Origin: Tetracentron sinense
Lineage: Eukaryota; Streptophyta; Magnoliopsida; Trochodendrales; Trochodendraceae
Assembly: GCA_015143295.1 (NCBI GenBank)
Contig: CM026556.1
Coordinates: forward strand, 15,562,547-15,626,546
DNA: 64,000 nt
Direction: 5' to 3'
The notes under the pieces are model-generated. The model was not told where the DNA came from. It worked only from the letters and a program-made list of their open reading frames with translations, and ran no database searches. Made by a program: the position numbers and the translations under genes. Shown here one piece after another: positions 2,396-63,118 of this stretch (within the stretch, counting starts at the first letter, position 1; each line of letters starts with the position of its first letter).

Positions 2396-2515
2396 CTACT
2401 GATAACCCTCTACGGGAGGTTCCTCCAAAGGTTCCTCGATGTACTCCTCTTCCACCCATGGACCAGGAGCACAAACATCAAATGGAGCGGCAGCTCCCTC
2501 AGAACCTGCTGACAT
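2396..2515 (-). CDS. Conserved LTR small ORF (39 aa), S1 copy
   Basis: An ATG-started frame of 40 codons including the stop lies inside the solo LTR. It begins Met-Ser-Ala-Gly, carries the core PFDVCAPGPWVEEEY, and ends in a Glu/Pro-rich tail and Gly-Tyr-Gln. The same frame occurs in nine other LTR copies in this window. This copy differs from most by one Val-to-Ile change in the tail. No known family is recognised. Whether it is translated is not shown by the sequence. See the C-element copy (16164-16319) for the conservation argument. Confidence 0.5.
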   Translation of the reverse strand: MSAGSEGAAAPFDVCAPGPWVEEEYIEEPLEEPPVEGYQ

Positions 2516-6178: not shown

Positions 6179-6286
6179 ATGTTGGCAGGTGTTAGTGGAG
6201 CGGCTGCTCCTTTTGACATATGTGCTCCCGGTCCATGGGAGGAAGAGGAGTACTTTGAGAGGTCCCTACTGAGGAGCCTCATGTAG
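6179..6286 (+). CDS. Conserved LTR small ORF, diverged G copy (35 aa)
   Basis: It starts Met-Leu-Ala-Gly, keeps AAAPFDICAPGPW-EEEEY, and then loses the usual acidic tail to a frame change. Compared with the A-element copy, several codons differ only at the third base (Ala, Pro, Asp, Pro). This is the pattern expected under past protein-level constraint. It lies 8-9 nt after the conserved CTCAGC stem, as in all other copies. Confidence 0.45.
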   Translation: MLAGVSGAAAPFDICAPGPWEEEEYFERSLLRSLM

Positions 6287-15042: not shown

Positions 15043-15162
15043 CTACTGATAACCCTCTACGGGAGGTTCCTCAAAAGGTTCCTCGACGTACTCCTCCTCC
15101 ACCCATAGACCAGGAGCACAAACATCAAATGGAGCAGCAGCTCCCTCAGAACCTGCCGACAT
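15043..15162 (-). CDS. Conserved LTR small ORF (39 aa), B 3' LTR copy
   Basis: Same length and start as the other 39-residue copies. Pro-to-Leu in PGPW and Leu-to-Phe in the tail are its only visible changes. It lies just after the GCTGAG/CTCAGC hairpin in element orientation. Translation is not shown. Confidence 0.5.
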   Translation of the reverse strand: MSAGSEGAAAPFDVCAPGLWVEEEYVEEPFEEPPVEGYQ

Positions 15163-16108: not shown

Positions 16109-16126
16109 AGGTGGACAGACCCACCT
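16109..16126. other. Conserved LTR hairpin 2 (AGGTGG/CCACCT), C copy
   Basis: A perfect 6-bp stem with a 6-nt loop, about 40 nt downstream of the small ORF in element orientation. In the A/B/E subfamily the same place holds GCGG/CCGC around a 6-nt loop. The inner C-G pair there is T-A here, so both arms changed together. The copy in the 5' LTR is at 23620-23637. It could be an RNA structure in the transcript. Confidence 0.6.
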
Positions 16127-16163: not shown

Positions 16164-16319
16164 TCAATAGTCATCCCCGTGGGGCCAATGGTCTAAGTCT
16201 CTTGCCTCCGCCTGAGGCTCGACTACTAGATCCTCATAAGGTTCCTCCTCGCCATAGTCCTCCTCTATCCAAGGACCCGGATCACAAATGTCGAGAGGGA
16301 CTCGGGTACCTGCCGACAT
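16164..16319 (-). CDS. Conserved LTR small ORF, C form (51 aa)
   Basis: 52 codons including the stop, starting Met-Ser-Ala-Gly-Thr, with core PLDICDPGPWIEEDYGEEEP and a C-terminal tail rich in Asp, Glu and His ending Gly-Asp-Asp-Tyr. It is very acidic, has one Cys, and shows no signal peptide or membrane segment. Against the 39-residue form, aligned codons for Pro, Asp, Pro, Pro, Glu and Tyr differ only at the third base. Other changes are Phe/Leu, Val/Ile (twice) and Glu/Asp; Ala/Asp and Val/Gly are less conservative. That pattern argues for selection on the peptide. The copy in the 5' LTR (23675-23830) has one further synonymous change. It lies in transcribed LTR sequence either upstream of gag or in the 3' end. 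The function is unknown and I recognise no family. Confidence 0.55.
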   Translation of the reverse strand: MSAGTRVPLDICDPGPWIEEDYGEEEPYEDLVVEPQAEARDLDHWPHGDDY

Positions 16320-16504
16320 GAAAGTACGGCTGAGCATGGAATACTCAGCGAGTACAAGCCCCTAACTAACAATGGTAATAACGAACAATATCATATACAA
16401 GTAATGGAAGGAGTATAGTTCATAATCATTTCTAGCAACCACATACATAAACATTTTATCAAGTCATAATTATTATGAAACTAAAACATGTCTATGCATC
16501 CGCA

Positions 16505-17040
16505 TATCTCTTATGAGCCAGAGGTTAGCACCCGCATATCCCTGGGCTACCAACCTCCTTGACAGTACAATACCTTTCTTATGAGCCAGGGGTTAGCACC
16601 CTTAACCGGGGCTACCAACCCCCTTGACAGTACGATACACTTCTTATGAGCCAGAGGTTAGCACCCTTAACCGGGGCTACCAACCCCCTTGACAGTACGA
16701 TACCTTACTTATGAGCCAGAGGTTAGCACCCTTAACCGGGGCTACCAACCCCCTTGACAGTACAATACACTTCTTATGAGCCAGAGGCTAGCACCCGCAT
16801 ATCCCTGGGCTACCAGCCTCCTTGACAGTGCGATACCTTACTTATGAGCCAGAGGTTAGCACCCTTAACCGGGGCTACCAACCCCCTTGACAGTACAATA
16901 CACTTCTTATGAGCCAGAGGCTAGCACCCGCATATCCCTGGGCTACCAGCCTCCTTGACAGTGCAACATTTCCGAGTCCTTTCTTATGAGCCAGGGGTTA
17001 GCACCCGCATATCCCTGGGCTACCAACCCCCTTGACAATA
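16505..17040. repeat. 65-bp tandem array in the C 3' LTR (8 units)
   Basis: The units start CTTATGAGCCAGAGG and carry GGTTAGCACCC..GGGGCTACCAACC, which can fold back on itself. Two sub-types alternate: one with CTTAACCGGGG and one with GCATATCCCTGGG. Eight units are counted here and seven in the 5' LTR (24005-24490). Since the LTRs were identical at insertion, one unit was gained or lost very recently. Confidence 0.9.
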
Positions 17041-21815: not shown

Positions 21816-23052
21816 CTTGCACGACATCGTCAGATGCACGTGCATCCCATTCCGACAAGGCAAAAACTTGACCCTGGTTTGCCCTACGAGGTGGTGGAGT
21901 GGATAACGTGGGTCGTGAAGGCCTAGACGCAGAAGTCTGTGAGGATCCCGACTGGGAATCCTGACGAACTGGGGGCCTACTCCCTTGGGGTTGGATAGGC
22001 TGCAGCTGCCTGCGTGGGCAATCCCTGACCATGTGGTTCACATCTCCACAGTGAAAGCACCCACCGGAAATCCTCCGACATTCACCAATCCGGTGACTCC
22101 GACCACAATAGGAGCACTCCTCAAATGCCGATGAGGATGAAGGTGGAACATATCGGGTGGCCTGTGAAAGTGTGGGACGAGGTACCGGTGTAGTGGTAGG
22201 CCGAGATACCTGTGATGTCAAGGGAGGCCTCTGTGACCGTATTGGCTTGGATGCCTGATATGGGGCTGCCCTAGCCCTCTTCTCTGCTGACCCCGAACTA
22301 CTCGATTGGCCTCGAGCCACATCCCTTCTCTTGAAGAATTCTTCCGAATTCTTCTCGGCAAGCTTCGCCTTGCTCACAACCTCTCCCCAGGTAGCCACCT
22401 GGAACATCGAGACCCTGTCTCTAATGGAGGGTTTCAATCCCCGCTCAAATTTCCTGACTCGCATATGCTCCGATGCAATTAGGTGAGGTGCGAATCTCGA
22501 CAACTCCACGAAGGTAGCCTCATAATCGGCCACACTCAACTCTCCTTGTTCAAGAGTCATGAATTCAATCTCCTTCTGTTCTTTGACAGCTGCTGGAAAA
22601 TACTGCTTATAGAAGACATCCAAAAATTCCGGCCATGTCCACGGCTCCCCCGCCCTGGTGGACTCCCTCTGTCTCTGTGCGGCTCTCCACCAATGCTCGG
22701 CCGCACCTTCCATCACGAAGGTGGCCCAGTCCACTCTCTGTTCATCCGTGCAGTGGAGCGCTCTAAAAATCTTTTCCAATTGCATCACCCATGCCTCGGC
22801 GACCATGGGGTCAGTAGTACCGAAGAAGGTAGGAGGACGCAATCTCCTAAATGCCTCCAATCCTGAAGCATGGTGTGCCGGAGGTGGCGGAGGCGTAGAA
22901 GGAGTAACGGCAACCGGCCTTGCTGCTAACATAGCCAAGGTCTCGGCTATAGATGCAAAAGCTTGGGAAAAATCGGGTTGTTCGTCACCGGAAGGGGCAT
23001 CACTTCCACTTCCCCTCGTATTGTATCCGCGACCCCGAGCACCGCGTCTCAT
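21799..23052 (-). CDS. gag: Intact gag of element C
   Basis: 417 codons from the conserved start [12 protein letters not shown] (ATG at 23052). An upstream ATG at 23103 is less likely because relatives start at this MRR. Order: Arg/Gly-rich start; Ala/Pro-rich linker; capsid-like Gag core ([56 protein letters not shown]); Ser/Pro/Arg-rich linker; then two zinc knuckles. The first is [13 protein letters not shown], which is CX2CX3HX4C, one residue short. The second is [14 protein letters not shown], a normal CX2CX4HX4C. Gag forms the virus-like particle and binds RNA. The last codons after Val-Gln-Gly come from the unspliced intron. The leader 23053-23372 (about 320 nt) has no gene. Confidence 0.93.
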
Positions 23053-23372
23053 GATGTGATCCTGAGAACGACAGTACCACATGAGTCTAACTTGGATACG
23101 CATTTAATACAATTTCGCAATTCACTTAATACATATTCATCAGACATATTTAATAAGCACAATACAATTTAAGCACACATGGTATACAACATCATATCAT
23201 AACATACATGTCGTGTTCCTAGCGTAGGATTCTAAGTTTGGTTGAAGTTCAACCTATTTTGACTAAGACTAACTTGTTAGTCTATACTTGGAATACAACT
23301 CTTTCCTACACCTAATGCCTTGTTCAATTATGGTATCTAGAACTAAGCGACCCTAGGGACTCTAATGCCTAG

Positions 23373-23385: not shown

Positions 23386-23674
23386 CCTCTGTCACGCCCC
23401 AAAATACCCCCTAGGAGTTTAGGGATACTTTAGGTGGACTAAACAAACCTGCCAAACCATCCTGTAATGAACAAGATAAATAAGGAAATAAACAATGATA
23501 ATCAGAGCGCGGAAGCTAAACATAATTTGCGGAAGCGAAAACTAAAATTTTCTTTTCTTTATAAGGATCCAAACTGTAGTATTCCAAGTTAACATAAATA
23601 CAAAACACGTCTAAGTCTAAGGTGGACAGACCCACCTAACAAAATACAAAAGACAAAATACAACTTTGTCTCGC

Positions 23675-23830
23675 TCAATAGTCATCCCCGTGGGGCCAAT
23701 GGTCTAAGTCTCTCGCCTCCGCCTGAGGCTCGACTACTAGATCCTCATAAGGTTCCTCCTCGCCATAGTCCTCCTCTATCCAAGGACCCGGATCACAAAT
23801 GTCGAGAGGGACTCGGGTACCTGCCGACAT
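23675..23830 (-). CDS. Conserved LTR small ORF, C form, 5' LTR copy
   Basis: Same 51 residues as 16164-16319, differing by one synonymous Ala codon (GCA versus GCG). Because it is in the 5' LTR it could be part of the leader of the genomic RNA, upstream of gag, if transcription starts before it. The start site of transcription is unknown. Confidence 0.55.
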   Translation of the reverse strand: MSAGTRVPLDICDPGPWIEEDYGEEEPYEDLVVEPQAEARDLDHWPHGDDY

Positions 23831-24004
23831 GAAAGTACGGCTGAGCATGGAATACTCAGCGAGTACAAGCCCCTAACTAACAATGGTAATAACGAACAAT
23901 ATCATATACAAGTAATGGAAGGAGTATAGTTCATAATCATTTCTAGCAACCACATACATAAACATTTTATCAAGTCATAATTATTATGAAACTAAAACAT
24001 GTCT

Positions 24005-24490
24005 ATGCATCCGCATATCTCTTATGAGCCAGAGGTTAGCACCCGCATATCCCTGGGCTACCAACCTCCTTGACAGTACAATACCTTTCTTATGAGCCAG
24101 GGGTTAGCACCCTTAACCGGGGCTACCAACCCCCTTGACAGTACGATACACTTCTTATGAGCCAGAGGTTAGCACCCTTAACCGGGGCTACCAACCCCCT
24201 TGACAGTACAATACACTTCTTATGAGCCAGAGGCTAGCACCCGCATATCCCTGGGCTACCAGCCTCCTTGACAGTGCGATACCTTACTTATGAGCCAGAG
24301 GTTAGCACCCTTAACCGGGGCTACCAACCCCCTTGACAGTACAATACACTTCTTATGAGCCAGAGGCTAGCACCCGCATATCCCTGGGCTACCAGCCTCC
24401 TTGACAGTGCAACATTTCCGAGTCCTTTCTTATGAGCCAGGGGTTAGCACCCGCATATCCCTGGGCTACCAACCCCCTTGACAATATCCT
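24005..24490. repeat. 65-bp tandem array in the C 5' LTR (7 units)
   Basis: Same CTTATGAGCCAGAGG units as at 16505-17040, one fewer. Its position in the LTR matches that of the CTAGTTGC hairpin array in B and E and of the GAAGGGTCTCCCTTC array in A and H. Confidence 0.9.
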
Positions 24491-25706
24491 CCATCTACAT
24501 AAGTGCTCGTGCATAGCAATCGTGAAATTATGATGACATATAGCATTTTAACAATTTCCAACTCACATGAGAATTTAAGAAGCGAAATAACACCTGCATA
24601 CAACTTGCCAAATGGGGAACAGTTATGTGACTCATGCTTTCAAATCTTAGTTTATTCATGCATTCTATCAAACACGTGGTATTCAACCTTTTTACCTTTA
24701 GTTATTTCATATTTTCTCATTCGAACATTTCATCAAACACTTGGGGTGTGTTCATTATGCGTAATATGCCCTTCCACCATTTTTCCCATCATTCAACACA
24801 TCACAACATGGCATCCAATTGCCTCCACTCCTCATCCATTTATACATTCCACCATTTGTTTGTATTATCTTCTTTTTGTTTTAGGGATTTAGCACATACC
24901 AACACAAGAGAGCAATGGGAAAGATCTAACACATATTTACATAGAAAAGATCCTAGGTTATTACCAAAGTAACTAGGAAGAGTGTACTAACCTTGAAAAG
25001 GGAAAGAAAAATCCTTGAGGATGATGTAGAAACGCTGCCCTAGCTTGGAAGAGGTACTCCACACGAGCTTGAGGTTGGATTTGGAGAATCCAAGCCTTTA
25101 GAACGGTTCTAGGGTTCTAAAACCCTTGATTCTCTCAAGTGGAAAACCCTAGATGTAAATCCCCCTTCTCTTCTCTTCTTCTCTCTCAAAAACCTTCTAA
25201 GTGAGGTGAATGAAGCCCTAAAGGCTCGGGCAAGCCCTTATGGGTAAGGGTTAACACCCAGAAGACGAAAACGCCCTTACTAAAAATTCTGCAAAACTCG
25301 ATAGATCGAGCGATCGGTGCTTATGACCGATCGATCGGTTGCCTACCGAGCGATCGGTGTTATTGACCGATCGACCGGTCAAAAACTCGCTCTCTGGAAA
25401 ATTTCCCCATACAAAATTTCTGACCGTGCGACAGCTACCGATCGATCGGTTATGGACCGATCGATCGCTGACTGGACCGAGCGATCGGTGCTCTGTATGT
25501 CTGGACTGTTTTGACCATATCTTTTGACTCGCTCGTCGGATTTCGATGATTCAACTTGCGTTGGATCCGTCTTTCGAAAACGAACATTTCTGACGTTTCG
25601 GAATTTCCGATTTTTCCCTTATTTATAAATTAGACTACAAAAACGGCCAATTAGCTACGAGGGTGCTATTCATTAAGGATGAAAAAGTCCGGGGTGCTAC
25701 ATGCAT

Positions 25707-32057: not shown

Positions 32058-34330
32058 TGTCGTGACCCAAAACCCACCCTAGGAGTTAGAGTGAATCTTG
32101 GACGACTTAATCATGACTTACATGACTTGCTTGATGAACCAACCTGAAAACTCACAGAACATATACAATAGAGGATAACAGCGGAAGCATAACTATAAAA
32201 CACAGCGGAAGTCTAACAAACCTCTAAGTATATACACATGGTCCAAGTTAATACAAAAGAAAACAAAACAAAGAAAGTGCGGACATGCCCGACAAAATAC
32301 ATGGATATAATTACTCATGCTCACCCACAGCTAATCCACTCGGAATCTAACACCACCTACTGATAACCCTCTACGGGAGGTTCCTCCAAAGGTTCCTCGA
32401 CGTACTCCTCCTCCACCCATGGACTAGGAGCACAAACATCAAATGGAGCAGCAGCTCCCTCAGAACCTGCCGACATAAGAAGTACGGCTGAGCATGGAAT
32501 ACTCAGCAGGTACTAAATACTAACCAACAGTCATAGTATACAGATAGCATACATAAAGTAGGAAGCAAGTTGCATATATAGAACAGGAACAATTTATATC
32601 AAACAAGGAAGTAAAGCAATTTGTATTCGTGCTTGCATTCGGAAAGACTGATAAAACCCTTGAAAACATCGTGCACTTGACTTGACTTGAAATACCCCTT
32701 GCGTGATTGGGAACTTGTTAACCGTGTCATGCCTGTCATGCTTGCATTTTCATAATTTAAACATGTTCACATGCCTAGTTGCCGTTCATAGTCCGTCGCA
32801 ACTAGTACCCTATATGCAGATGGGTATGCCTAGTTGCCGTTCATAGCCCGTCGCAACTAGCATCCATGCGGAATGTGAATGCCTAGTTGCCGTTCACAGC
32901 CCGTCGCAACTAGCATCCATGTGTGTCATGTGATGCTATGCTATGCGTGTCATGCCATGCTATGCTATGCGTGTCATGCGATGCTATGCATGTCATGCGA
33001 GGGGATGGGAGACCTTTCCCTATGCAATGCATGATTGTCTTGCCCTTGTCAAAAGCAAAGTGAAACATATCTTAGGATATGCCCCACCTCTACATCCCAT
33101 ACTTAAAACATCGGTAAATCACGTCATTTCAGGCGTGCTCGTGAGATCGTGTGCATACTTGCATTTGGAATTAAATATGGCAATTTGGGGTAATTCACAA
33201 AGCATAGCATATAGCAATTTAAGTGAGTAATAATCTACGCATTTTAAGAAATGTAGGAAACACACTATCATGAACCCTAACAATTTCAAGAGCAATCAAG
33301 CATGGGTTCCCTTAATTTATCATTTATTTTGTTCACCTTGGCATTTCATCAAACATGGGGTGTGTTCATTATTCACTTAAACCTAGATCATGCTTTTCTA
33401 GGTGGGTTATGCTCACATCACACTTGTATGTTCATTATTAGTACAATGCCCTTTCCCATACGTTCATCACATCATCCACACGGCATCCATTCGCCAACAT
33501 CCATCTCCATTCACCATTCATACCACCAATCTCATAACACATATATATGTGAAGGAAAACAAGAAGAAATAAAGGAAAAGAGAAGCTATAACTAGGAGGG
33601 TAGCAAAGAGTACCGACCTTGACAAAAGAGGGAAGGAATCCCATTCCAAAATGCACGTAAGTTGCTGCCCTAGCTTGGAACACGAGCTCCACGAATGCTT
33701 GAACCGAAATCTTGAAGAAATCGGGCTTGAGGTTGATCTAGGGTTTCAAAACCCTTTGATTTCTCTCCAAAATGGAAACCTAGGTTTTGGAAAACCTTCT
33801 CCTTTCTCTCTATCTCTCAAAAGACTCTAAGGGTTGTGTATGAACCCTCAAATGATCGGGCAAAGCCTTTAAGGTATGAGTGAAACGCCCAAAAGACGAA
33901 AACACCCTTAATGAAATTTCTGCAAAAACACGAGGACCGAGCGATCGGTGGTTATGACCGATCGATCGGTTGCCTACCGAGCGATCGGTGTTTATGACCG
34001 ATCAACCGGTCAAAAACTCACTCTCTGGAAAATTTCCCCATACAAAATTTCTGACCGTGCGATAGCTACTGATTGATCGGTTATGGACCGATCGATCGCT
34101 CTATGGACCGAGTGATCGATTACCTACAAGTCCAGACTGTTTTGGCCATATCTTTTGACCCGTTCGTCGGATTTCGACGATTCAACTTGCGTTGGGTTCG
34201 TACTTCGAAAAGGAACATTTCTGATGTTTCAGAATTTCCAATTTCTTCCTTATTTATTAATTGCACTACTTTAAAGTAAAAATGGCTACGAAAGGGTCAT
34301 GCATAAATGTCAAAAGTTCGGGGCTCTACA
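32058..34330 (-). repeat. B 5' LTR
   Basis: 2273 bp, TGTCGTGACCC to GGGGCTCTACA. It has the CTAGTTGC hairpin array (32776-32920, three units), GATCGATC palindromes (33935-34115) and the small ORF. It is close to the 3' LTR, with scattered single-base changes and one fewer hairpin unit. Confidence 0.93.
32357..32476 (-). CDS. Conserved LTR small ORF (39 aa), B 5' LTR copy
   Basis: Forty codons including the stop, starting Met-Ser-Ala-Gly-Ser. It differs from the A copy by Pro-to-Ser in the PGPW core. It sits after the GCTGAG hairpin in element orientation. Confidence 0.5.
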   Translation of the reverse strand: MSAGSEGAAAPFDVCAPSPWVEEEYVEEPLEEPPVEGYQ

Positions 34331-35174: not shown

Positions 35175-35294
35175 ATGTCGGCAGGTTCTGAGGGAGCTGC
35201 TGCTCCATTTGATGTTTGTGCTCCTGGTCCATGGGTGGAAGAGGAGTACGTCGAGGAGCCTTTGGAGGAACCTCCCGTAGAGGGTTATCAATAG
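35175..35294 (+). CDS. Conserved LTR small ORF (39 aa), A 5' LTR copy
   Basis: A reference form of the 39-residue type: MSAGSEGAAAPF, then DVCAPGPWVEEEYVEEP, then a Glu/Pro tail ending Gly-Tyr-Gln and TAG. It starts 10 nt after the CTCAGC arm of hairpin 1. An overlapping upstream ATG in the hairpin loop opens an 11-codon frame that ends inside this ORF. Confidence 0.5.
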   Translation: MSAGSEGAAAPFDVCAPGPWVEEEYVEEPLEEPPVEGYQ

Positions 35295-37350: not shown

Positions 37351-40300
37351 GAACCCTACTAGTCAATGAGTAATTGGCTCGAGTGTTGATTGATACCAGG
37401 TCTACTCATTCATTTGTCTCGCCGAGTTTTTTAGAAGGCTTTTCTGTAGAGCCAAGTCAGCTAGAACCGGAGTTAGCCATTTCGAATCCTCTCGGCAAAA
37501 TAGTATTGGCAGATAAAGTGTATAGAAATAGTGTGGTCCATGTTGGAAGCCACGAGTTGGCGGTTGATCTCATCGTCCTTGGATTCCAAGACTTTGATGT
37601 TATATTGGGAATGGATTGGTTAGCAGCACATCATGGGCATGTAGCTTGCTTTGAGAAAATGGTACTCTTCAAGCCAGTAGAAGGAAAACCATTCCACTTT
37701 CGCGGGTTGAAAAGTAGATATATTGCTCGTTTTGCTGGGTTGAGCTTAGCTAACCCCGAGGCAAAGGACTCATCGACTATTCCGGTTGTGAGTGAGTTCC
37801 TGGATGTATTTCCAGAGGAGTTGCCAGGATTGCCTCCAGACAGGGAGATTGAGTTTGTGATCGAGCTTGCACCAGGCACAGCTCCTGTTTTCAGGGCTCC
37901 GTATAGAATGGCCCCTATTGAACTCAAAGAGTTAAAGACCCAGTTGGAAGAATTACAAGGTCTTGGTTTCATTCGACCAAGTGTCTCACCGTGGGGTGCC
38001 CCGGTGTTGTTTGTTAAGAAGAAAGATGGCTCGATGCGGATGTGCGTCGATTACAGGCAATTGAACAAAGTCACTATAAAGAATAGGTATCCCTTACCTA
38101 GGATTGATGACTTGTTCGATCAGTTGAAGGGAGCGATATTTTTCTCGAAGATAGACCTTCGATCAGGTTATCACCAGTTGAAGATTAAGGTGGAAGATGT
38201 TCCCAAAACTGCTTTCAGGACTCGGTATGGACACTACGAGTTCTTGGTGATGCCTTTTGGACTCACGAACGCGCCGACAGCCTTTATGGATTTGATGAAC
38301 CGGGTGTTCCGGCCATATCTTGATAGGTGCGTGATTGTATTTGTTGATGACATTTTGGTCTATTCCCAGACACGGGAAGATCACACACGCGACCTATGCC
38401 TTGCTTTGGAAATGCTAAGAGAGCACAAGCTATACGCCAAACTTAGCAAGTGTGAGTTTTGGTTGGAAGAGGTGGCATTCCTAGGCCACGTTGTTTCTAC
38501 AGAAGGTATCTCGGTAGATCCAAAGAAGATCGAAGAAATTATGAGTTGGGCAAGGCCCAAGAGTATTACCGAGATACGCAGCTTTCTTGGGTTGGCAGGC
38601 TACTACAGGAGATTCGTAGAGGGTTTCTCTAGCCTTGCAGCACCGCTCACTTACCTGACAAGGAAGAACGCCAAGTTTGTATGGAGTGATAAGTACGAGA
38701 TCAGTTTCACGGAACTGAAGAAGAGGCTTACTACAGCCCCTGTCCTTACTGTGCCATCTGGACCTTATGGGTATGAGGTGTATAGTGATGCCTCACACGT
38801 TGGACTTGGGTGTGTACTCATGCCGCACAAGAAAGTCATTGCCTATGCATCGAGGCAATTGAAGGAACATGAGAAGAATTACCCCACGCACGACTTAGAG
38901 CTTGCCGCAGTCGTGTTTACACTCAAGATCTGGCGACATTACTTATACGGGGTGGAATTCTATGTGTATACGGACCACAAGAGCCTCAAGTACCTCTTTT
39001 CCCAAAAGGAATTGAATCTAAGGCAACGGCGTTGGATGAAATTTTTAAAAGACTATGATTGTACCATTCAATACCACCCGGGTAAAGCAAATGTAGTGGC
39101 TGATGCTTTGAGTAGAAGACCTCCGGGGTTATTAGCATGCATGTTAGTGCAGGAATGGAAGCAACTTGAAGACTTGGCAAATCTGGACATTAGTGTGAAT
39201 GACTCTGTTCGTAGTCCTATCTTGGCAAATGTCACGGTTCGGCCATACATTATAGATTTGATCCAAGAATACCAAGCCACGGATGCTGAATTGTTGACTT
39301 ATCGGGACAAGGAAGTTGCTAAGGGTAGTGAGGACTTCTCTCTCACTAGTCGGGGTGCTATCACATTCAAAGGAAGGCTGTACGTCCCAGCCAATGCAGA
39401 TCTTCGAAGAGAGATTTTGGATGAAGCACACCGTTCGAAGTACACAGTGCATCCAGGGGGTACAAAGATGAACCGGAACCTCAAGAGTCACTTTTGGTGG
39501 CGGAATATGAAGAGGGAGGTTGCGGAATATGTAGCACGGTGCTTGGTGTGTCAACAGGTAAAAGCAGAACACATGGGGCCCACAGGTCTATTACAGTCCC
39601 TTCCGATTCCCGAGTGGAAATGGGAGAACATATCCATGGATTTCATAGTTGGCTTGCCAAAGACGGCAAGGGGCTCAGATGTGATATGGGTAGTAGTGGA
39701 TCGTTTGACGAAGTCCGCTCACTTCTTACCTTACCAAACTACTTTCAACTCTAGTCAGTTTGCCGCTTTGTACATCATAGAAGTGGTGAGGTTGCACGGA
39801 GTGCCCGTTAGTATTGTGTCAGATCGGGATCCAAGATTCACATCACGATTCTGGAAAAGCTTCCAGGAGGCTATGGGTTCCCGACTTGATTTCAGCACCG
39901 CTTTTCATCCACAGACGGATGGACAAACCGAGAGAGTGAACCAAGTCATTGAAGACATGCTTCGGGCTTGTATGTTGGATTTCAGAGGCAGTTGGGAAGA
40001 GCACTTGCCTTTGGTTGAATTCGCCTATAATAACAGCTATCAGGCGAGTATCCAAATGGCACCATTTGAGGCCTTGTATGGGCGAAGTTGTAGGTCTCCT
40101 CTCTATTGGGATGAGGTAGGAGAAAGGAAAGTACTTGGTCCAGAGTTGATTGAGCAAACTGCAGGCACAGTTAAGATCATTCGGGATCGATTGAAAGCCG
40201 CTCACGATCGCCAGAAAAGTTATGCGGACACGCGCCGTAGGGACTTGGAATTTCAAGTAGGGGATCAAGTTTTTGTGAAAGTATCTCCTAGCAAAGGGAT

Positions 40301-40676
40301 CATGAGATTTGGAAAGCGAGGCAAGCTCAGTCTTCGGTATGTTGGGCCTTTTGAGATTATCACACTAGTTGGTGAGGTTGCTTACAAGGTAGCTCTCCCG
40401 CCTCACATGGCCGCAGTTCACAACGTCTTCCATGTGTCTATGCTTCGGAAGTACATTGCGGATCCTTCGCATGTCATAGACTTGGAACCGTTGGAGATTC
40501 GAGAGGACCTCACCTTGATTGAAAAGCCGGTTCAGATTTTGGATTGAAGAGATCAGGTGCTTCGCAACAAGACAATCCCTTTGGTTCTTGTGCAATGGCA
40601 ACACCATGCTCGGGAAGAAGCTACATGGGAGCGTGAAGCCGAAGTCAAAGCAAAGTACCCAGAATTAATTGAATGA
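37351..40676 (+). pseudogene. pol: A pol: two nonsense codons and altered protease site
   Basis: 3326 nt, so no net indel against B. TAA at 37371-37373 follows Val-Asn-Glu. The protease motif reads DTRSTHSF, so the Gly of the Asp-Thr-Gly triad is Arg (GGG to AGG, in a CpG context). RT (FVDDIL), RNase H (DASHVGLG) and integrase core residues are kept. TGA at 40545-40547 (CGA in others) removes the last 43 residues, which hold much of the chromodomain. It is otherwise a 1057-codon open frame. Confidence 0.92.
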
Positions 40677-40776: not shown

Positions 40777-41581
40777 TGTAGAGCCCCGGACCTTTTCACG
40801 TTTAATGCATGACACTTTCATTTCCATTTTGCCTTTAAAGAGTTATAATTAATAAATAACTTGACATGCATGACATGACACGTACGACACGCTCGACAAG
40901 ATCAAATAAGACAAACATGACAAGCTTTCAAGTACGAAAGGATATTTCAAGCCAAGTCAAGTGTACGATGTTTTCAAGAGGTTTTATCGGCTTTCTATGA
41001 AATACAAGCATGATTATAAATTGCTTTACTTCCTTGTGTGATATGAATTGTTTCCGTCTAACATATATGAATTGCTCCTGATTTATGTATTGCCATTTTT
41101 ATGCTATGACTATTGGTTAGTATTCGGTACCCGCTGAGTATTCCATGCTCAGCCGTACTTCTTATGTCGGCAGGTTCTGAGGGAGCTGCTGCTCCATTTG
41201 ATGTTTGTGCTCCTGGTCCATGGGTGGAAGAGGAGTACGTCGAGGAGCCTTTGGAGGAACCTCCCGTAAGGGTTATCAGTAGGTGGTGTTAGATTCTGAG
41301 TGGATTGGCTGTGGGCGAGCATGAGTGATTATATCCATGTATTTTGGCGGGCATGTCCGCACTTTCTTTGTTTTGATTTCTTTGTATTAAACTTGGACCA
41401 TGTGTATATACTTAGAGGTTGTTAGACTTTCGCTGTGTTTTATAGTTATGTTTCCGCTGTCATCCTCTATTGTATATGCTCTGTGGGTTTTTGCAGGTTG
41501 GTTTGTCAAGCAAGTCATGTAAGCCATGATTAGTCGTCCAAAGCTCACTCTAACTCCTAGGGTGGGTTTTGGGTCGCGACA
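40777..41581 (+). repeat. A 3' LTR with a 1.8-kb internal deletion
   Basis: Only 805 bp of the expected 2.6 kb. After AATTAATAAATAA near 40858 it jumps to the CTTGACATGCATGACATG region equivalent to about 34870-34890 of the 5' LTR. The variable palindrome zone and the hairpin array are lost. Both ends are intact and the CTAGT duplication follows. Confidence 0.9.
41164..41292 (+). pseudogene. LTR small ORF, A 3' LTR copy, tail frameshifted
   Basis: It starts as the A 5' copy, but a 2-nt deletion in the tail (CCCGTAAGGG) changes the last residues and moves the stop to 41290-41292. Confidence 0.45.
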
Positions 41582-47621: not shown

Positions 47622-47741
47622 ATGTCGGCAGGTACTGAGGGAGCTAATGCTCCATTTGATGTCTGTGCTCCCGGCCCATTGGTGGAGGAGGAATACGTCG
47701 AGGAACCTGTAGAGGAACCTCTGGTAGAGGGCTACTATTAG
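47622..47741 (+). CDS. Conserved LTR small ORF (39 aa), H copy
   Basis: MSAGTEGANAPF, then DVCAPGPLVEEEYVEEP, ending Gly-Tyr-Tyr and TAG. Forty codons are kept in an element whose gag and pol are badly broken. A 1-nt loss in the hairpin just upstream does not touch the frame, which supports the MSAG methionine as the start. Confidence 0.5.
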   Translation: MSAGTEGANAPFDVCAPGPLVEEEYVEEPVEEPLVEGYY

Positions 47742-51438: not shown

Positions 51439-52839
51439 TGTAGAGCCCCGGACTTTTTCACATTTAATGCATGACACTTTCATTGCCATTTTGCCTTTAA
51501 AGAGGTATAATTAATAAATAAGGAAGAAATTGGAAATTCCAAACTGTCAGAAATGTTTGTTTTCGAAGTACTAACCCAACGCAAGTTGAATCGTCAAAAT
51601 CGGACGAACGAGTCAAAAGTTATGGCCAAAACAGTTTGGACCTGCAGACCACCGATCGCTCGGTCCATGGAGCGATCGATCGGTCCAAAACCGATCGCTC
51701 GGAGGCTATCAACTGGTCAAGATTTTTGTATGGGAAAATTTTCCAGAGAGTGAAATTTTAACCGATCGCTCGATTATGAAACCGATCGATCGGTCATTAA
51801 CACCGATCGCTCGGTACTCGCGTTTTTGCAGAAATTTTAGTAAGGGTATTATGGTCTTTTGGTCGGTTCACTCTTACCTTAAGAGTTTAACCCGAGCCTT
51901 TAGGGCTTCATTTCGACACTTAGAGAGATTGGGAGATAAGAAGAGAGGAGAGGGCGATTCCTAAACCTAGGGTTTCCATTTTGGAGAGAAATCAAGGGGT
52001 TTGTGAACCCACACTCAACTCAAGCCCATTTTTCTTCAAGATCAAGGCACAAGCTCGTGAGGAGCATCTCCTCAAGCTAGGGCAGCAACTCACGGTCGTT
52101 TGTGGAAGGGGTTTCTCCCCTCATTGTTCAAGGTCGGTACTTCTTGCTACCCTCCTAGTTATAGTTCCTCTTTTCCCTTTATTTCCCTTTGTTTTCCTGT
52201 ATTTACTCATGTGCTATGAGATGGATGGTTGTGAATGGTGAATCGAGATGGAATGGGCGATTGGATGCCAATGGTTGTGTTATGATGATTAAAATGGGGA
52301 GGGCATTGTTCCAATAATGAACATACATGCATGATTTGAGTAAAATCCATCTAGAAAAGCATGTTGTAGGGTAAATCAATAATGAACACACCATGTTTGA
52401 TGAAATGCCAAGATGAATGAAAAGAAAAATAAATAAAGAAAATGCATGCTTAACATTTATGGAAATTGCTAAGGTTATGATAGTGTGTTTTCGCGCTTTC
52501 CCTAAATTGTTTAATTTATTACTTGTATATATGGTAATGTGCAATGTATGGTGAATTCCCCAAAATGTCATATTTAATTTCCATCGCAAGTGTGTACACG
52601 ATTACACGAGCACGGCATGAAACGACGTGATTTACCGATGTTTTCAAGGACGAGATGTAGAGGTGGGGCATATCCTACGATATGTTTCACTTCGCTTTTG
52701 GCAAGGACAAGATGATCATGCATTACATAGGGAAGGGTCTCTCATCCCATCGCATTACACGCATGGCATGCCATCGCATTACACGTATGGCATAGCATCT
52801 CATGACACTCAAGGCATGGCATGACACGCATGGATGCTA

Positions 52840-53035: not shown

Positions 53036-53344
53036 GTGAACATGTTTAAATTCCGAATAAACAAGCATGATACAAGTATGACAAGCATGACACGGTAAAT
53101 AAGTTCCCAATTACGCGAAGGGTATTTTAAGTCAAGTCAAGTGCATAATGTTTTTCAAGGATTTTATCGGCTTTTCATGAACTGCAAGCATGATTATGAA
53201 TTTCCTTATTTCTTTGTATGATATTAACTGTTCCTGATTCATATATATCTATATTGTTTCCTGGGTATGCATTGCTATCTCTTGCTATAACTGTTGGTTA
53301 GTAGTTAGTACCCGCTGAGTATTCCATGCTCAGCCGTACTTCTT

Positions 53345-53464
53345 ATGTCGGCAGGTTCTGAGGGAGCTGCTGCTCCATTTGATGTTTGTGCTCCTGGTCC
53401 ATTGGTGGAGGAGGTGTATGTCGAGGAGCCTTTGGAGGAACCTCCCGTAGAGGGTTATCAGTAG
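53345..53464 (+). CDS. Conserved LTR small ORF (39 aa), E 5' LTR copy
   Basis: MSAGSEGAAAPF, then DVCAPGPLVEEVYVEEP, with the same tail and stop as A. A TAG stop lies in frame shortly upstream, so the MSAG methionine is the only possible start. Confidence 0.5.
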   Translation: MSAGSEGAAAPFDVCAPGPLVEEVYVEEPLEEPPVEGYQ

Positions 53465-55508: not shown

Positions 55509-58500
55509 GAACCCTACTAGTCAATGAGTATTTGGCTCGAGTATTGATTGATACTGGGTCTACTCATTCGTTTGTCTCATCGAGTTTTTCAGAAGGCTTT
55601 TCTGTGGAGCCTAGTCAGCTAAAACCGGAGTTAGCCATTTCGATTCCTCTGGGCAAAACAGTATTGGCAGATAAAGTGTATAGAAATAGTGTGGCCCAAG
55701 TTAGAAGCCACGAGTTGGCGGTTGATCTCATCGTCCTTGGATTCCAAGACTTTGATGTTATATTGGGAATGGATTGGTTAGCAGCGCATCATGGGCATGT
55801 AGCTTGCTTTGAGAAGATGGTACTCTTCAAGCCGGTAGAAGGAAAACCATTTCACTTTCGGGGGTTGAAAGGTAGAGATATTGCTCGCTTTACGGCATTG
55901 TACCTAGCGAACCTCGAGGCAAAGGACTCTTCGACTATTCCGGTCGTGAGTGAATTCCTGGATGTATTTTCAGAGGAGTTGCCAGGATTACCTCCAGACA
56001 GGGAGATTGAGTTTGTGATCGAGCTTGCACCAGGCACAGCTCCCATCTTTCGGGCTCCGTATAGAATGGCCCCAGTTGAACTTAAAGAGTTGAAGACCCA
56101 GTTGGAGGAATTGCAAGGCCTTGGCTTCATTCGACCAAGTGTCTCACTGTGGGGTGCCCCGGTGTTGTTTGTTAAGAAGAATGATGGCTCGATGCGGATG
56201 TGCGTCGATTACCGGCAATTGAACAAAGTCACTATAAAGAATAGGTATCCCTTGCCTAGGATTGATGACTTGTTCGATCAGTTGAAGGGAGCGAGATTTT
56301 TCTCAAAGACAGATCTTCGATCGGGCTATCACCAGTTGAAGATTAAGGCGGAAGATATTCCCAAAACGGCTTTCTGGACTCGATATGGACACTACGAGTT
56401 CTTGGTAATGCCTTTTGGTCTCACAAACGCGCCGGCAGCTTTTATGGATTTAATGAACCGGGTGTTCCGGCCATACCTAGATCGATGCGTGATAGTGTTT
56501 GTCGACGATATCTTGGTGTATTCGCAGACACGGGAAGATCACATGCGAGACCTTTGCCTTGCTTTAGAAATGCTGAGAGAGCACAAGCTATATGCCAAAC
56601 TCAGAAAGTGTGAGTTTTGGTTGGAAGAGGTGGCATTCCTAGACCACGTTGTTTCTGTGGAAGGCATCTCCGTTGATCCGAAGAAGATAGAGGCTATTAT
56701 GAGTTGGGCAAGGCCCAAGAGTGTCACAGAGATACGTAGTTTTCTTGGACTGGCAGGCTACTACAGGAGATTCGTAGAGGGTTTCTCCAGCCTTGCAGCA
56801 CCGCTCACTTACCTGACAAGGAAGAATGCCAAGTTTGTATGGAGTGATAAGTGCGAGATCAGTTTCAGGGAACTGAAGAAGAGGCTTACTACAGCCCCTG
56901 TCCTTACTGTACCATCTCGACCTTATGGGTATGAGGTGTATAGTGATGCCTCACACGTTGGACTTGGGTGTGCACTCATGCAGCAGAAGAAAGTCATTGC
57001 CTATGCATCAAGGCAATTGAAGGAGCATGAGAAGAATTATCCCACGCACGACTTGGAGCTTGCGGCGGTCATGTTTGACTTAAGATTTGGCGTCATTACC
57101 TTTATGGGGTGGAGTTCTATATGTTTACCGATCACAAGAGTCTCAAGTATCTCTTTTCCCAAAATGAGTTGAATCTAAGGCAACGGCGTTGGATGGAATT
57201 TTTGAAAGACTATGATTGTACCATTCAATACCACCCGGGTAAAGCAAATGTAGTGGCTGATGCTTTGAGTAGAAGACCTCCGGGGTTATTAGCACGCATG
57301 TTAGTGCAGGAATGGAAGCTACTTGAAGACTTGGCAAATCTGGACATTAGTGTGAATGACTCTGTCCGTAGTCCTATCTTGGCAAATGTCACGGTTCGGC
57401 CATACATTATAGATTTGATCCAAGAATACCAAGCCACGGATGCTGAATTGTTGGCTTATCGGGACAAGGAAGTTGCTAAGGGTAGTGAGGACTTCTCTCT
57501 CACTAGCCGAGGTGCTATCACATTCATGGGAAGGCTGTGTGTCCCAGCCAATGCAGATCTTCAGAGGGAGATTATGGATGAAGCCCACCGGGCAAAGTAA
57601 ACTGTGCATCTAGGGGGTACGAAGATGTACCGTAACCTCAAGAGTCACTTTTGGTGGCGGAATATGAAGAGGGATGTTGCTGAATATGTGGCACGGTGCT
57701 TAGTGTGCCAACGGGTGAAAGCATAACACATGTGACCCGCCGGCCTATTGCAGTCCCTTCCTATTCCCGAGTGGAAATGGGAGAACATATCCATGGATTT
57801 CATAGTTGGCTTGCCAAAAACGGCAAGGGGCTCAGATGCAATTTGGGTTGTAGTGGATCGTCTGACAAAGTCCGCACATTTCTTACCCTATCGAACTACT
57901 TTTAACTCTAGTCAGTTAGCCGCTTTGTACATCAAGGAAGTGGTGAGGTTGCACGGAGTGCCAGTCAGTATTGTGTCGGATCGGGATCCAAGATTCACGT
58001 CAAGATTTTGGAAAAGTTTCCAAGAGGCTATGGGTTCCCGACTTGATTTCAGCACCTCTTTTCATCCACAGACGGATGGACAAACCGAGAGAGTGAACCA
58101 AGTCATTGAAGATATACTTCGGGCTTGTATGTTGGATTTCAGAGGCAGTTGGGAAGAGCACTTGCCTTTGGTTGAATTCGTCTATAATAACAGCTATCAG
58201 GCGAGTATCCAAATGGCACCATTTGAGGCCTTGTATGGGCGAAGTTGTAGGTCTCCTCTCTATTGGGATGAGGTAGGAGAAAGGAAAGTACTTGGTCCAG
58301 AGTTGGTTGAGCAAACTGCAAACACAGTTAAGATCATCCGGGATCGATTGAAAGCCGCTCAAGATCGCCAGAAAAGTTATGCGGACCCGTGCCGTAGGGA
58401 CTTGGAATTTCAAGTAGGGGATCAAGTTTTTGTGAAAGTATCTCCTCGCAAAGGGATCATGAGATTTGGCAAGCGAGGCAAGCTCAGTCCTCGGTATGTT

Positions 58501-58833
58501 GGGCCTTTTGAGATTATCACGCGAGTTGGTGAGGTTGCTTACAGGGTAGCTCTCCCACCTCACATGGCCGCAGTTCACAACGTTTTCCATGTGTCTATGC
58601 TTCGGAAGTACATTGCGGATCCTTCGCATGTCATAGACTTGGAACCATTGGAGATTCGAGAGGACCTCACCTTGATTGAAAGGCCGGTTCAGATTTTGGA
58701 TCGAAGAGATCAAGTGCTTCGCAACAAGACAATCCCTTTGGTTCTTGTGCAATGGCAACACCATGCTCGGGAAGAAGCTACATGGGAGCGTGAAGCCGAA
58801 GTCAAAGCGAAGTACCCAGAATTATTTGAATGA
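55509..58833 (+). pseudogene. pol: E pol: one frameshift, three nonsense codons
   Basis: 3325 nt, one less than A and B. A 1-nt deletion near 57077 (TTTGACTTAAG for TTTGCACTTAAG) shifts the frame inside RNase H. Stops follow at 57598-57600 (TAC to TAA), 57724-57726 and 57733-57735, all before the integrase core. Protease DTGSTHSF and RT FVDDIL are intact. The integrase-chromodomain frame from 57748 to the stop is open (361 codons), with [16 protein letters not shown] and [10 protein letters not shown] kept. Confidence 0.93.
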
Positions 58834-58934: not shown

Positions 58935-61333
58935 TGTAGAGCCCCGGACTTTTTCAGATTTAATGCATGACACTTTCGTTGCCATTTTTCCTTTAAAAAG
59001 GTATAATAAATAAATAAGGAAGAAATTGGGAATTCCAAAATGTTAGAAATGTTCGTTTTCGAAGTACGAACCCAACGCAAGTTGAATCGTCAAAATCGGA
59101 CGAACGAGTCAAAAGTTATGGCCAACACAGTTTGGACCTGCAGACCACCGATCGCTCGGTCTATGGAGCGATCGATCGGTCCAAAACCGATCGCTCGGAG
59201 GCTATCGACTGGTCAAGATTTTTGTGTGGGAAAATTTTCCAGAGAGTGAAATTTTAACCGATCGCTCGGTTATGAAACCGATCGATCGGTAGGCAACCGA
59301 TCGATCGGTCATTAACACCGATCGCTCGGTACTCGCGTTTTTGCAGAAATTTCAGTAAGGGTATTATGGTCTTTTGGTCGGTTCACTCTTACCTTAAGAG
59401 GTTAACCCGAGCCTTTAGGGCTTCATTTCGACTCTTAGAGAGATTGGGAGATAAGAAGAGAGGAGAGGGCGATTCCTAAACCTAGGGTTTCCATTTTGGA
59501 GAGAAATCAAGGGGTTTGTGAACCCACACTCAACTCAAGCCCATTTTTCTTCAAGATGAAGGCACTAGCTCGTGAGGAGCATCTCCTCAAGCTAGGGCAG
59601 CAACTCACGGTCGTTTGTGGAAGGGGTTTCTCCCCTCATTGTTCAAGGTCGATACTTCTTGCTACCCTCCTAGTTATAGTTCCTCTTTTCCCTTTATTTC
59701 CCTTTGTTTTCCTTTGTTTACACATGTGCTATGAGATGGATGGTTGTGAATGGTTAATCGAGATGGAATGGGCGATTGGATGCCAATGGTTGTGTTATGA
59801 TGATTAAAATGGGGAGGGCATTGTTCCAATAATGAACATACATGCATGATTTGAGTAAAATCCATCTAGAAAAGCATGTTGTAGGGTAAATCAATAATGA
59901 ACACACCATGTTTGATGAAATGCCAAGATGAATGAAAAGAAAAATAAATAAAGAAAATGCATGCTTAAACATTTATGGAAATTGCTAAGGTTATGATAGT
60001 GTGTTTTTGCGCTTTCCCTAAATTTTTTAATTTATTACTTGTATATATGGTAATGTGCAATGTATGGTGAATTACCCAAAATGTCATATTTAATTTCCAT
60101 CGCAAGTGTGTACACGATTACACGAGCACGGCATGAAACGACTGATTTACCGATGTTTTCAAGGACGAGATGTAGAGGTGGGGCATATCCTACGATATGT
60201 TTCACTTCGCTTTTGGCAAGGACAAGATGATCATGCATTGCATAGGGAAGGGTCTCTCATCCCATCGCATTACACACATGGCATGGCATCGCATTACATG
60301 CATGGCATAGCATCTCATGACACTCAAGGCATGGCATGACACGCATGGATGCTAGTTGCGACGGGCTATGAACGGCAACTAGGCATACACATTTCGCATG
60401 GATGCTAGTTGCGATGGGCTATGAACGGCAACTAGGCATACACATTTTGCATGGATGCTAGTTGCGACGGACTATGAACGGCAACTAGGCATATCATTCA
60501 GCATATAGGATACTAGTTGCGACGGACTATGAACGGCAACTAGGCATATCATTCAAGTGTACAGGGTACTAGTTGCGACGGGCTATGAACGGCAACTAGG
60601 CATGTGAACATGTTTAAATTCCGAATAAGCAAGCATGATACAAGTATGACAAGCATGACACGGTAAATAAGTTCCCAATTACGCGAAGGGTATTTTAAGT
60701 CAAGTCAAGTGCATGGTGTTTTTCAAGGATTTTATCGGCTTTTCATGAACTGCAAGCATGATTATGAATTTCCTTATTTCTTTGTATGATATTAACTGTT
60801 CCTGATTCATATATATCTATATTGTTTCCTGGGTATGCATTGCTATCTCTTGCTATAACTGTTGGTTAGTAGTTAGTACCCACTGAGTATTCCATGCTCA
60901 GCCGTACTTCTTATGTCGGCAGGTTCTGAGGGAGCTGCTACTCCATTTGATGTTTGTGCTCCTGGTCCATTGGTGGAGGAGGTGTACGTCGAGGAGCCTT
61001 TGGAGGAACCTCCCGTAGAGGGTTATCAGTAGGTGGTGTTAGATTCTGAGTGGATTAGCTGTGGGTGAGCATGAGTGATTATATCCATGTATTTTGGCGG
61101 GCATGTCCGCACTTTCTTGTTTTGATTTCTTTGTATTAAAACTTGGACCATGTGTATATACTTAGAGGTTTGTTAGACTTCCGGTGTGTCTTATAGTTAT
61201 GCTTCCGTTGTTATCCTCTATTGTATATGCTCTGTGGGTGTTTTGCAGGTGGTTTGTCAAGCAAGTCATGTAAGTCATGATTTAGTCATCCACGATTCAC
61301 TCTAACTCCTAGGGTGGGTTTTGGGTCGCGACA
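58935..61333 (+). repeat. E 3' LTR
   Basis: 2399 bp. It has one extra ACCGATCGATCGGT unit near 59277-59296 and one extra hairpin unit (60345-60605, five units) compared with the 5' LTR. All other modules are in the same order. Confidence 0.94.
60913..61032 (+). CDS. Conserved LTR small ORF (39 aa), E 3' LTR copy
   Basis: One Ala-to-Thr change and one synonymous Tyr change from the 5' LTR copy. The length and stop are the same. Confidence 0.5.
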   Translation: MSAGSEGAATPFDVCAPGPLVEEVYVEEPLEEPPVEGYQ

Positions 61334-61338
61334 CCCCA

Positions 61339-63118
61339 GGTGTCGAAAGGTTGTTTTGTAGGTCATATAAGGCTATGGACACATCCATTAGCCTGGAAGC
61401 GTTCCCTAACGGGATGGTGTGTTACCGGATTTGGTTCACGTGCACGAGGCTCGAGTATTTCAGTTAACCAAGCGAGGCTTGGGTTAACTAGGGTTAACCT
61501 GTGGTTAGAAAAGCTAACCAGGGTTAAAGTGTAATCCAACGTGATTGATAGTCGGGAGTGGGTGAATTTGATATCCATAGATCCTCTTTGACTAGGTCAA
61601 GGGAGAACAGATTGTTGTGTTATTTTATAGATATGCCATACCAAGTCTAAGTTAGTCGGTTGTGATGCCTCTGATAGATATGTTGTCCGTACTGTGGCTG
61701 AGTCAGATGGTTGTATTATCTGATAGATATATCATACCAAGGCTGAGTCAGTGGGTTATCTTGCCTCTGATAGATATGTCATCCGTACCGTGGTTGAGTC
61801 AGATGGTTGTATTATCTGATAGATATGCCGTACCGAGGCTGAGTCAGTAGGTTGTGATGCCTCTGATAGATATGTCCTCCGTACGGTGGCTGAGTCAGAT
61901 GGTTGTGTTATCTGATAGATATGTCGTACCGAGGCTGAGTCAGTAGGTTGTGATGCCTCTGATAGATATGTCGTCCGTACGGTGGCTGAGTCAGATGGTT
62001 GTGTTATCTGATAGATATGCCCTGAGGATATAAGTCCCCACCGTGGCTGAGTCAGATGGTTGTGTTATCTGATAGATATGTCGTACCAAGGCTGAGTCAG
62101 TAGGTTGTGATGCCTCTGATAGATATATCATCCGTACCGTGGCTGAGTCAGATGGTTGTATTATCTGATAGAGATGTCGTGAGGATAGAGGTCCCCACTG
62201 TGGCTGAGTCAGATGGTTGTGTTGTCTGTGATCTGATGGATATGCCGTGAGGATAGAATTCCTCATAGTGGCTGAGATCAGACGATTATGTTGGTTCTAG
62301 CGGGTGAAGGCCCGGATTATGTACGGAGTCTATGGACTCAAGGTTGTATGGAGTCTAAGGAGTCAAGGTTTGATTTCATTGGGTGTAAGTCTGGTTTGAT
62401 CTCGATAGTTATCATGGGGGAATGGGACGCTATGGTAACTAAATTAATGTTAATAGATTTAGAAATTGATAGCGAGTCTACGAACTCTAACTTGGATATT
62501 GGGTTTATGGACTCAAGTTGAATACAGGCGAAGGCTAGTTGATTGAGTCTGCGGACTTAAGGATAGAGTGTGAGCGGTTGTCTGGAAGGGTAACCTAGTG
62601 GTGTAAACGATGATTGGATGAACTTGGAAATTAAGGTTCAGAACCTCGAAATAGGGTGAAATAGCCCTAAGTGACCTCGGGTCACTGATTACGATATTAT
62701 ATATTATTATAATATGAGAATTGTATTGCAACACTGTATCGTTATTGATGATGATGATTATTACTAGGCAGAAAATAGCCTAGATGGATTGTGGATTTTG
62801 CTGGGCTCTATAGCTTACTCCTATCATTTTATGTCTTCATATTTGGAAGTAATTGTCGATTGGCAAGGAGTTATGCTTGATGGATTCTGAAAGTGTACCG
62901 GCGCAGTTATGGCGCAAAAAGTAACGGCTATTATAGCCAGTGAGGTAACGTATTTGCTTATGATGGGTTATTGTGATGACCGGTTGTTATTGCTTGCTCA
63001 TCAGAAAAGTTTAAAAATCCCCGTATTTTCGCAGGTAAAGTCTTCCGCATTCGTGGTTATGACGAACGAGCACGCGTCTTAGAACTTAATTTCTCACAGG
63101 CGGGTTCGGGGCGTCACA
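61339..63118 (+). repeat. F 3' LTR, right part
   Basis: It resumes after the second CCCCA and ends GGGGCGTCACA at 63118. It includes a GGTTAACC-type short repeat (61460-61530), the 48/96-bp tandem array (61650-62285) and the part shared with 48036-48501. The LTR without E is about 3.1 kb, the longest here. Confidence 0.87.
61650..62285. repeat. 48/96-bp tandem array in the F LTR
   Basis: Two related half-units alternate. Both have CTGATAGATATG and GGCTGAGTCAG; one continues ATGGTTGTGTTAT and the other TAGGTTGTGATGCCT. GTGATGCCTCTG recurs at 61854 and 61950, a 96-bp period. About 13 half-units are present. Confidence 0.88.

Follow-up and report, generated by a model that had tools for sequence, protein, structure and literature searches.

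The window, by which we mean the whole 64,000-nucleotide stretch of Tetracentron sinense DNA that was analysed, contains Ty3/gypsy elements with a chromodomain, and their long terminal repeats (LTRs), about 2.3 kb in length, hold a short open reading frame near the 3' end. A Pfam scan of five frames of the host elements gave matches to RVT_1, RT_RNaseH, Retrotrans_gag and zf-CCHC, together with Chromo (E 1e-4 and 4e-5) and rve matches that lie below the Pfam bit cut-offs; Chromo is absent from the match list for the 37374-40544 frame. Reverse transcriptase, RNase H, integrase, a zinc-knuckle gag and a chromodomain after the integrase place the elements among the Ty3/gypsy chromoviruses, and a TGGTATCAGAGC-like primer site follows those 5' LTRs that were checked. 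On the minus strand at 58000-58821 there is also a 273-codon open frame antisense to the integrase region of element B, which is probably a mirror of the coding strand. The ATG of the short frame lies 412-441 nt before the 3' end of the LTR in the 11 copies of the window, which are the following:

2396..2515, minus strand: microprotein frame, A clade, 39 codons (translation, A-clade variant counts)
6179..6286, plus strand: microprotein frame, copy G (MLAG), with a frameshift in the tail (translation)
15043..15162, minus strand: microprotein frame, A clade (translation, A-clade variant counts)
16164..16319, minus strand: microprotein frame, copy C, in the 3' LTR of the C element, 51 codons (translation, codon lists, shuffle and NG86 tests)
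23675..23830, minus strand: microprotein frame, copy C, in the 5' LTR of the C element, 51 codons (translation)
32357..32476, minus strand: microprotein frame, A clade, CAPSPW variant (translation, A-clade variant counts)
35175..35294, plus strand: microprotein frame, A clade, which served as reference (translation, A-clade variant counts)
41164..41292, plus strand: microprotein frame, A clade, in which loss of one base breaks the tail (translation)
47622..47741, plus strand: microprotein frame, H (translation, NG86)
53345..53464, plus strand: microprotein frame, B, 5' LTR (translation, A-clade variant counts)
60913..61032, plus strand: microprotein frame, B, 3' LTR (translation, A-clade variant counts)

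These intervals had been singled out in an earlier reading made from the letters alone (the sequence-only reading), and on translation all 11 are open frames as described there. Both kinds of start that it had named are present, with MSAG in ten copies and MLAG in one rather than nine and one. Its pattern P-[FL]-D-[VI]-C-x-PG, claimed for every copy, holds in the other window copies and fails in 32357-32476, which reads CAPSPW; PGPW proper is present in 6 of the 11. The statement that eight of the nine non-C copies stay in frame was too generous, as seven of the nine are intact to the stop, 6179-6286 being frameshifted and 41164-41292 lacking one base.

The microprotein is strongly acidic, with 9-16 acidic and 0-3 basic residues in its forms of 39-51 residues. 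AlphaFold predicted no fold for it (mean pLDDT 65, pTM 0.17), and a folded mini-domain was set aside on that prediction. Kinship with known proteins was also considered and set aside, since forms C and A have no match in Pfam and form C has none in PDB below E 0.9. The same two results count against recent capture by the LTR of sequence from gag or a host gene. Plant LTR elements are reported to capture genes (PMC7264820), but no convincing second copy appears among the window tblastn matches listed, and the frame occupies the same place in many diverged families, which leaves a recent capture highly improbable.

The evidence base is one genome and 314 kb, the window being extended by 25 stretches of 10 kb (250 kb), of which 12 flank the window and 13 lie elsewhere. 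Copies were sought by tblastn of the window peptides over 20 of the 25 stretches and with a small profile, a search that favours intact copies, over all 25. This added 21 copies, for a total of 32, including the new lineages D, E, F, J, K, N and O, with at least one copy in 8 of the 12 flanking and 5 of the 13 distant stretches; a scan of eight 3-kb loci of the same genome gave no copy of the frame. A weak profile match at L012:9010-9060 (plus strand) was discarded as chance, whereas N and O, whose profile scores are weak too (E 2 to 7), were retained because the hairpin block described below is present in them.

In lineage D (L028 and L020), the L028 copy reads MSAGTEGALDPEPWVEEEYIEE...RDLDVWPYLDYC, and lineage E (L025) reads FDICTPGLWEEEEY...NLDHWP. 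The block EPW[VI]xExY is kept in F (L017, L010), J (L025) and K (L031), and in N (L024) and O (L017) both motif regions persist, with a shift of frame from one to the other. In C, D, A, F and J the gap lengths from the Gly codon to PW are all multiples of three. A second motif, LDxWP, is common to C, D and E; in K it stands past a stop, and the A form ends before it. This distribution suggests that the long C-type form is probably ancestral and that the abundant A form arose by an early end. An ATG is present at the start site in 27 of the 32 copies. It is missing from five copies in four lineages (two copies of F, and E, J and K), so the start ATG is not universal. Frequent in-frame breaks had been named beforehand as an outcome that would speak against a coding role; breaks are infrequent, 22 of the 25 copies of the C, D and A clades being intact to the family stop (the broken ones are 41164, 6179 and L031:7067), though the search favours intact copies.

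The frame inside the LTR is under frame-specific coding constraint. The sequence-only reading had noted six codons in which A and C differ only at the third base, and the codon lists bear this out. By NG86 counts, the gap-free A-H alignment has 10 synonymous differences at 27 sites against 8 nonsynonymous at 90 (pN/pS 0.24, Fisher p 0.0011), the gap-free D1-D2 alignment has 7 at 29 against 4 at 109 (pN/pS 0.15, p 0.0017), and C-E has 21 at 26 against 35 at 106 (pN/pS 0.40, p 1.3e-5). These three pairs are independent and give a pooled Fisher p of 1.8e-8, so that within this one genome the ratio is not near 1, the value that had been named as refuting. Two more contrasts gave pN/pS of 0.34 (B-I) and 0.49 (F1-J), and constraint is weaker between F1 and F2 (pS 0.23, pN 0.13). 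Across 18 pairs of distant lineages, frame 0 has pS of 0.58-0.90 and pN of 0.19-0.42; the non-zero frames show no consistent excess of pS over pN, with pS above pN in several pairs for frame 2. Codon counts omit N and O because of the shift between their motif regions, and cover G over 25 codons only and K over 31 only.

Column shuffles lead to the same frame. The frame-0 amino-acid similarity was reached in 0 of 3000 shuffles for A-C and 1 of 3000 for A-H, while in the other five frames at least about 4% of shuffles reached the observed value in every test. Expressed as z, frame 0 scored 2.6-4.7 in 23 of 24 pairs and 1.7 in F1-F2, the other forward frames scored at most 1.2, and frame 0 stood above both alternative forward frames in all 24 pairs, the codon-phase outcome that the earlier reading had asked for. 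Unless gap-free, the pair alignments were protein-guided and hence biased toward frame 0; when the same DNA was aligned by the wrong frames, z ranged from -1.0 to 1.2 (7 pairs, 2 frames each). The same shuffle test applied as a control to the putative exon 1 described below gave z of at least 2.3 in 4 of 24 tests, with a maximum of 2.9, which indicates that clustered conserved sites can inflate z. Consequently, a z near 3 is not decisive by itself, whereas frame-0 values of 4 and more exceed this control.

Variation within the A clade provides a comparison at shorter distance. The set comprises 18 of 20 copies, with the broken 41164 and 6179 excluded and the L031 copy with an internal stop included, and it contains both LTRs of one element. 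Its 52 variants fall on codon positions 1, 2 and 3 as 10, 13 and 29 (p 0.0024), and four flanking segments show no codon phase (p 0.68, 0.17, 0.91 and 0.85). Variants per site amount to 0.74 at third positions, 0.26 at first and 0.33 at second, compared with 0.47-0.82 in the three flanks other than the hairpin. The ratio of nonsynonymous to synonymous variants is 25:27, against a neutral expectation of 3.04:1 from the flank's own mutation spectrum (p 2e-5). Singletons, which should be mostly neutral, have nearly the same ratio (11:12) as shared variants (14:15), and for this reason drift after insertion is not separated from selection in these counts. The surrounding LTR had been described as hard to align, which applies to its middle only, as about 680 nt at the LTR start match at 76% between C and B. 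The frame itself is more variable, with 52 variants at 117 sites, than the 50 nt that precede its ATG, with 12 variants at 50 sites.

These results bear on the possibility that the frame is a coding fossil, translated in an ancestor and no longer used by most present families, its intactness reflecting recent ancestry. The missing ATG in F, J, E and K would fit such a history, as would the shift between motif regions in N and O, the A form without its C-terminal motif and the weak constraint between F1 and F2. But the closest comparisons, D1-D2 and those within the A clade, do show constraint, and the 22 intact copies out of 25 also count against disuse; we regard a fossil as distinctly unlikely. 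A short frame kept across several diverged families argues instead that a small gene is probably an integral part of the LTRs of these plant elements.

Immediately before the frame lies a conserved hairpin of 8 bp with a loop of 2-4 nt, at 10 nt from the ATG in C and 11 nt in A and B:

16330..16348, minus strand: conserved 8-bp hairpin ending 10 nt before the ATG, copy C, 3' LTR (pairing check)
23841..23859, minus strand: conserved 8-bp hairpin, copy C, 5' LTR (pairing check)
53315..53333, plus strand: conserved 8-bp hairpin ending 11 nt before the ATG, copy B (pairing check)

Among 17 representatives, all eight pairs form in 15 and seven of eight in 2, and double changes occur, the loop-closing pair being T-A, C-G or A-T and another pair T-G or T-A. 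The start context of the ATG looks weak (TTCTTATGT). The 3' arm of the hairpin contains CTCAG, 10-11 nt before the ATG, which resembles a splice acceptor. The most widely kept candidate acceptor with a standard AG/GT (the slash marking the junction) is GGCAG/GT inside codons 3-4, use of which would remove the ATG. An acceptor at GTTAG before the hairpin was rejected, as it is not retained in F.

The conservation could in principle concern DNA and RNA signals only, with the hairpin and a 3' splice-site region maintained and the open frame incidental. Two observations agree with this: of the five segments compared in the A clade, the one with the hairpin varies least, and AG/GT is retained despite an altered ATG or Ala codon in F, J and O. 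Signals of that kind do not account for codon-phased constraint downstream of the AG, where silent sites vary about as the flanks do, or for its disappearance in other frames, and we consider a frame without a protein very unlikely.

Further upstream, most lineages keep a fixed order of an ATG-free stretch, a donor-like AAG/GT, about 1.1 kb rich in ATGs, the hairpin and the ATG of the frame. The features on which the interpretation of this order relies are:

23390..25701, minus strand: 5' LTR of the C element, carrying the frame, the hairpin and putative exon 1 (LTR comparison)
24992..25260, minus strand: putative leader exon 1 in the C 5' LTR, without ATG, ending at donor-like CAAG/GTTAGT, 5' limit approximate
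51862..52132, plus strand: putative leader exon 1 in the B 5' LTR, without ATG, ending at donor-like CAAG/GTCGGT, 5' limit approximate
23052..23062, minus strand: end of acceptor-like TTCTCAG and, nine nt on, the first base of the putative gag ATG (MRR...), C element

The donor-like site precedes the ATG by 1.05-1.27 kb in C, D2, B, H, I, F1 and F2 and by about 1.87 kb in N; counted from the LTR start, as was done for copies of A, B, C and H, the site comes after 695-717 nt. In the L028 copy of D it has one base changed, and an ATG-free stretch with a donor sought upstream of the 35175 copy and of E, K and O was not found. No ATG occurs in nine segments of 250 nt before the donor, as against 133 in eight segments of 250 nt after it. 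The nine copies counted are B, H, C, A, D2, F1, F2, I and N, two of them from one family; the L028 copy of D (because of its donor), E, J, K, O, b58 and a34 were left out, and a single ATG is present in the 250 nt preceding the donor in each of b58 and a34, so the zero applies to the nine counted copies only. Of the permutations of ATG, TAG, GAT and TGA are common before the donor, but AGT and GTA are also rare. The word CTAGGGTTT occurs in the ATG-free stretch of C, D1, D2, F1, I, N, B and H and is absent in F2, J, E and K. Plant introns are typically T-rich; the putative intron, with 28-32% T against 25-30% in exon 1, is only slightly richer, which is a weak point for an intron. From this arrangement it is likely that the ATG-free stretch is a leader exon scanned by ribosomes, followed by an intron inside the LTR.

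Two other arrangements were considered and set aside. Coding from exon 1 through the GGCAG/GT junction is contradicted by the lack of an ATG within 250 nt of the donor in 5 of the 7 LTR copies translated, and by stops in the required frame in A and B. Placement of the frame in U3 with a TATA box downstream of it, for which there are TATA-like words at +242 (A) and +267 (C), is put aside provisionally, as the distant ATG-free stretch speaks rather for transcription that begins upstream.

A second acceptor-like sequence precedes gag. TTCTCAG after a T-rich run lies 8-10 nt before the putative gag ATG in C, D (L028), the 35175 element and B, with TTCTTAG in the 32357 element. The gag start (MRR...) was itself placed by conservation, since in B and C an upstream ATG also opens a frame that runs into gag. 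The shared TTCTCAG makes it plausible that Gag is translated from a spliced RNA, with exon 1 joined to this acceptor-like site.

Conserved-peptide uORFs of plants are short conserved frames upstream of a main frame, and the LTR frame could act in cis in this way: ribosomes would translate it within the leader of gag or genomic RNA, and the nascent peptide or the act of translation would control Gag synthesis. It is short, precedes gag in the same orientation and has a seemingly weak start context. Such a uORF would be expected to be followed by few or no further start codons before the main frame, but in five elements (C, D, B, 35175 and 32357) there are 17-20 ATGs between the frame and the putative gag ATG, which makes scanning from one to the other implausible. 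In arrest peptides the C-terminus is usually the conserved part; here the C-terminal LDxWP is found in C, D and E and missing in the A clade, where the remainder is still constrained. Control of Gag by a uORF is therefore unlikely in our estimation. The loss of LDxWP in the A clade, with the rest constrained, likewise makes translation arrest a less likely role for the peptide in general.

The account that we favour, with somewhat better than even confidence, is a gene resident in the LTR that encodes an acidic, disordered microprotein of 39-51 residues and is fed by a spliced leader. The constraint on the frame is an observation; for splicing, translation and function we infer the following from the arrangement of sites. 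RNA would start about 430-450 nt into the LTR, and the ATG-free stretch would serve as leader exon 1. Splicing would remove the ATG-rich part and join this exon to an acceptor close upstream of the frame, for which CTCAG is the best candidate, and the ATG of MSAG would thereby become the first usable AUG. Joined to the second acceptor, which precedes the gag ATG by 8-10 nt, the same exon would give rise to Gag. The peptide may work in trans as an accessory factor of the element, which is speculative. Its conserved Trp and Tyr, separated within an acidic disordered chain, would suit a short binding motif; a host RNA-silencing or chromatin protein could be bound, and Argonaute or a chromatin protein as the partner is a guess.

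In a more far-reaching version, which we put forward only tentatively and consider doubtful as a whole, each LTR, solo LTRs included, would be a complete microprotein gene with promoter, leader exon, intron of about 1.1 kb, hairpin, frame of 39-51 codons and T-rich 3' region. R would span most of the LTR, and the polyadenylation signal of the genomic RNA would also end a short peptide RNA from the 5' LTR. The choice among three acceptors, i.e., before the peptide ATG, at codons 3-4 or before the gag ATG, would then result in peptide, no peptide or Gag, respectively.

By architecture, the nearest known system is Sag of mouse mammary tumour virus (MMTV), whose frame is located in U3. MMTV Sag combines a frame in the LTR, an RNA from the 5' LTR and an acceptor just before the LTR frame (PMC3026287). 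It is a superantigen of an animal retrovirus, in the 3' LTR, whereas the present peptide is an acidic chain of 39-51 residues in plant elements, encoded near the 3' end of the LTR; the likeness is one of architecture with no sequence relation claimed, and for splicing it extends to donor-like and acceptor-like sites. As a constrained protein frame within an LTR, the microprotein frame would fit the class of LTR-encoded accessory proteins. Plant Ty3/gypsy elements are reported to have additional open reading frames (aORFs) for proteins of unknown function, such as the group 2 5'aORF of Tekay and ORF0 of Retrosat2 (PMC11728184, PMC3485330). In the cases described, these lie outside the LTRs (PMC7264820, PMC11728184) and the Tekay protein has about 400 aa; the frame studied here is inside both LTRs, encodes about 45 aa and, with this location, lies outside the aORF class, which is defined by the internal region outside gag-pol. 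Titles and abstract openings of open-licence PMC articles gave no case of a protein frame internal to a plant LTR.

Splicing has also been described for plant LTR elements, which are generally without introns, Ogre and EVADE being given as exceptions (PMC12786077). BARE1 and EVADE make a separate gag RNA by splicing, and BARE has two LTR promoters (PMC3735527, PMC12786077). The introns reported for BARE1 and EVADE start at or after the end of gag, while in the present elements the putative donor is in the LTR and the putative acceptors precede the microprotein and gag. A leader intron in the LTR, if real, would explain how the Gag mRNA is separated from genomic RNA. A selected frame in the LTR would provide plant Ty3 elements with an accessory protein whose location parallels that of retroviral Sag.

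In many plant genomes LTRs account for a large fraction of the DNA; they are annotated as non-coding and are usually regarded as control DNA. If a selected protein frame does reside in them, each genome contains many copies that have escaped notice, perhaps including copies in solo LTRs.

Other repeats were found in and around these LTRs. Upstream of the hairpin, the C LTRs contain a tandem array of 65-68 bp units (16509-17037 and 23987-24484), and an array of units of about 96 bp lies just past the B 3' LTR (61608-62292). A second short inverted repeat follows the frame on the minus strand at 16109-16126 and 23620-23637, with equivalents in the A clade; it reads AGGTGG..CCACCT in C and D and GCGG..CCGC in most A-clade copies, so that pairing is kept despite the change in sequence.
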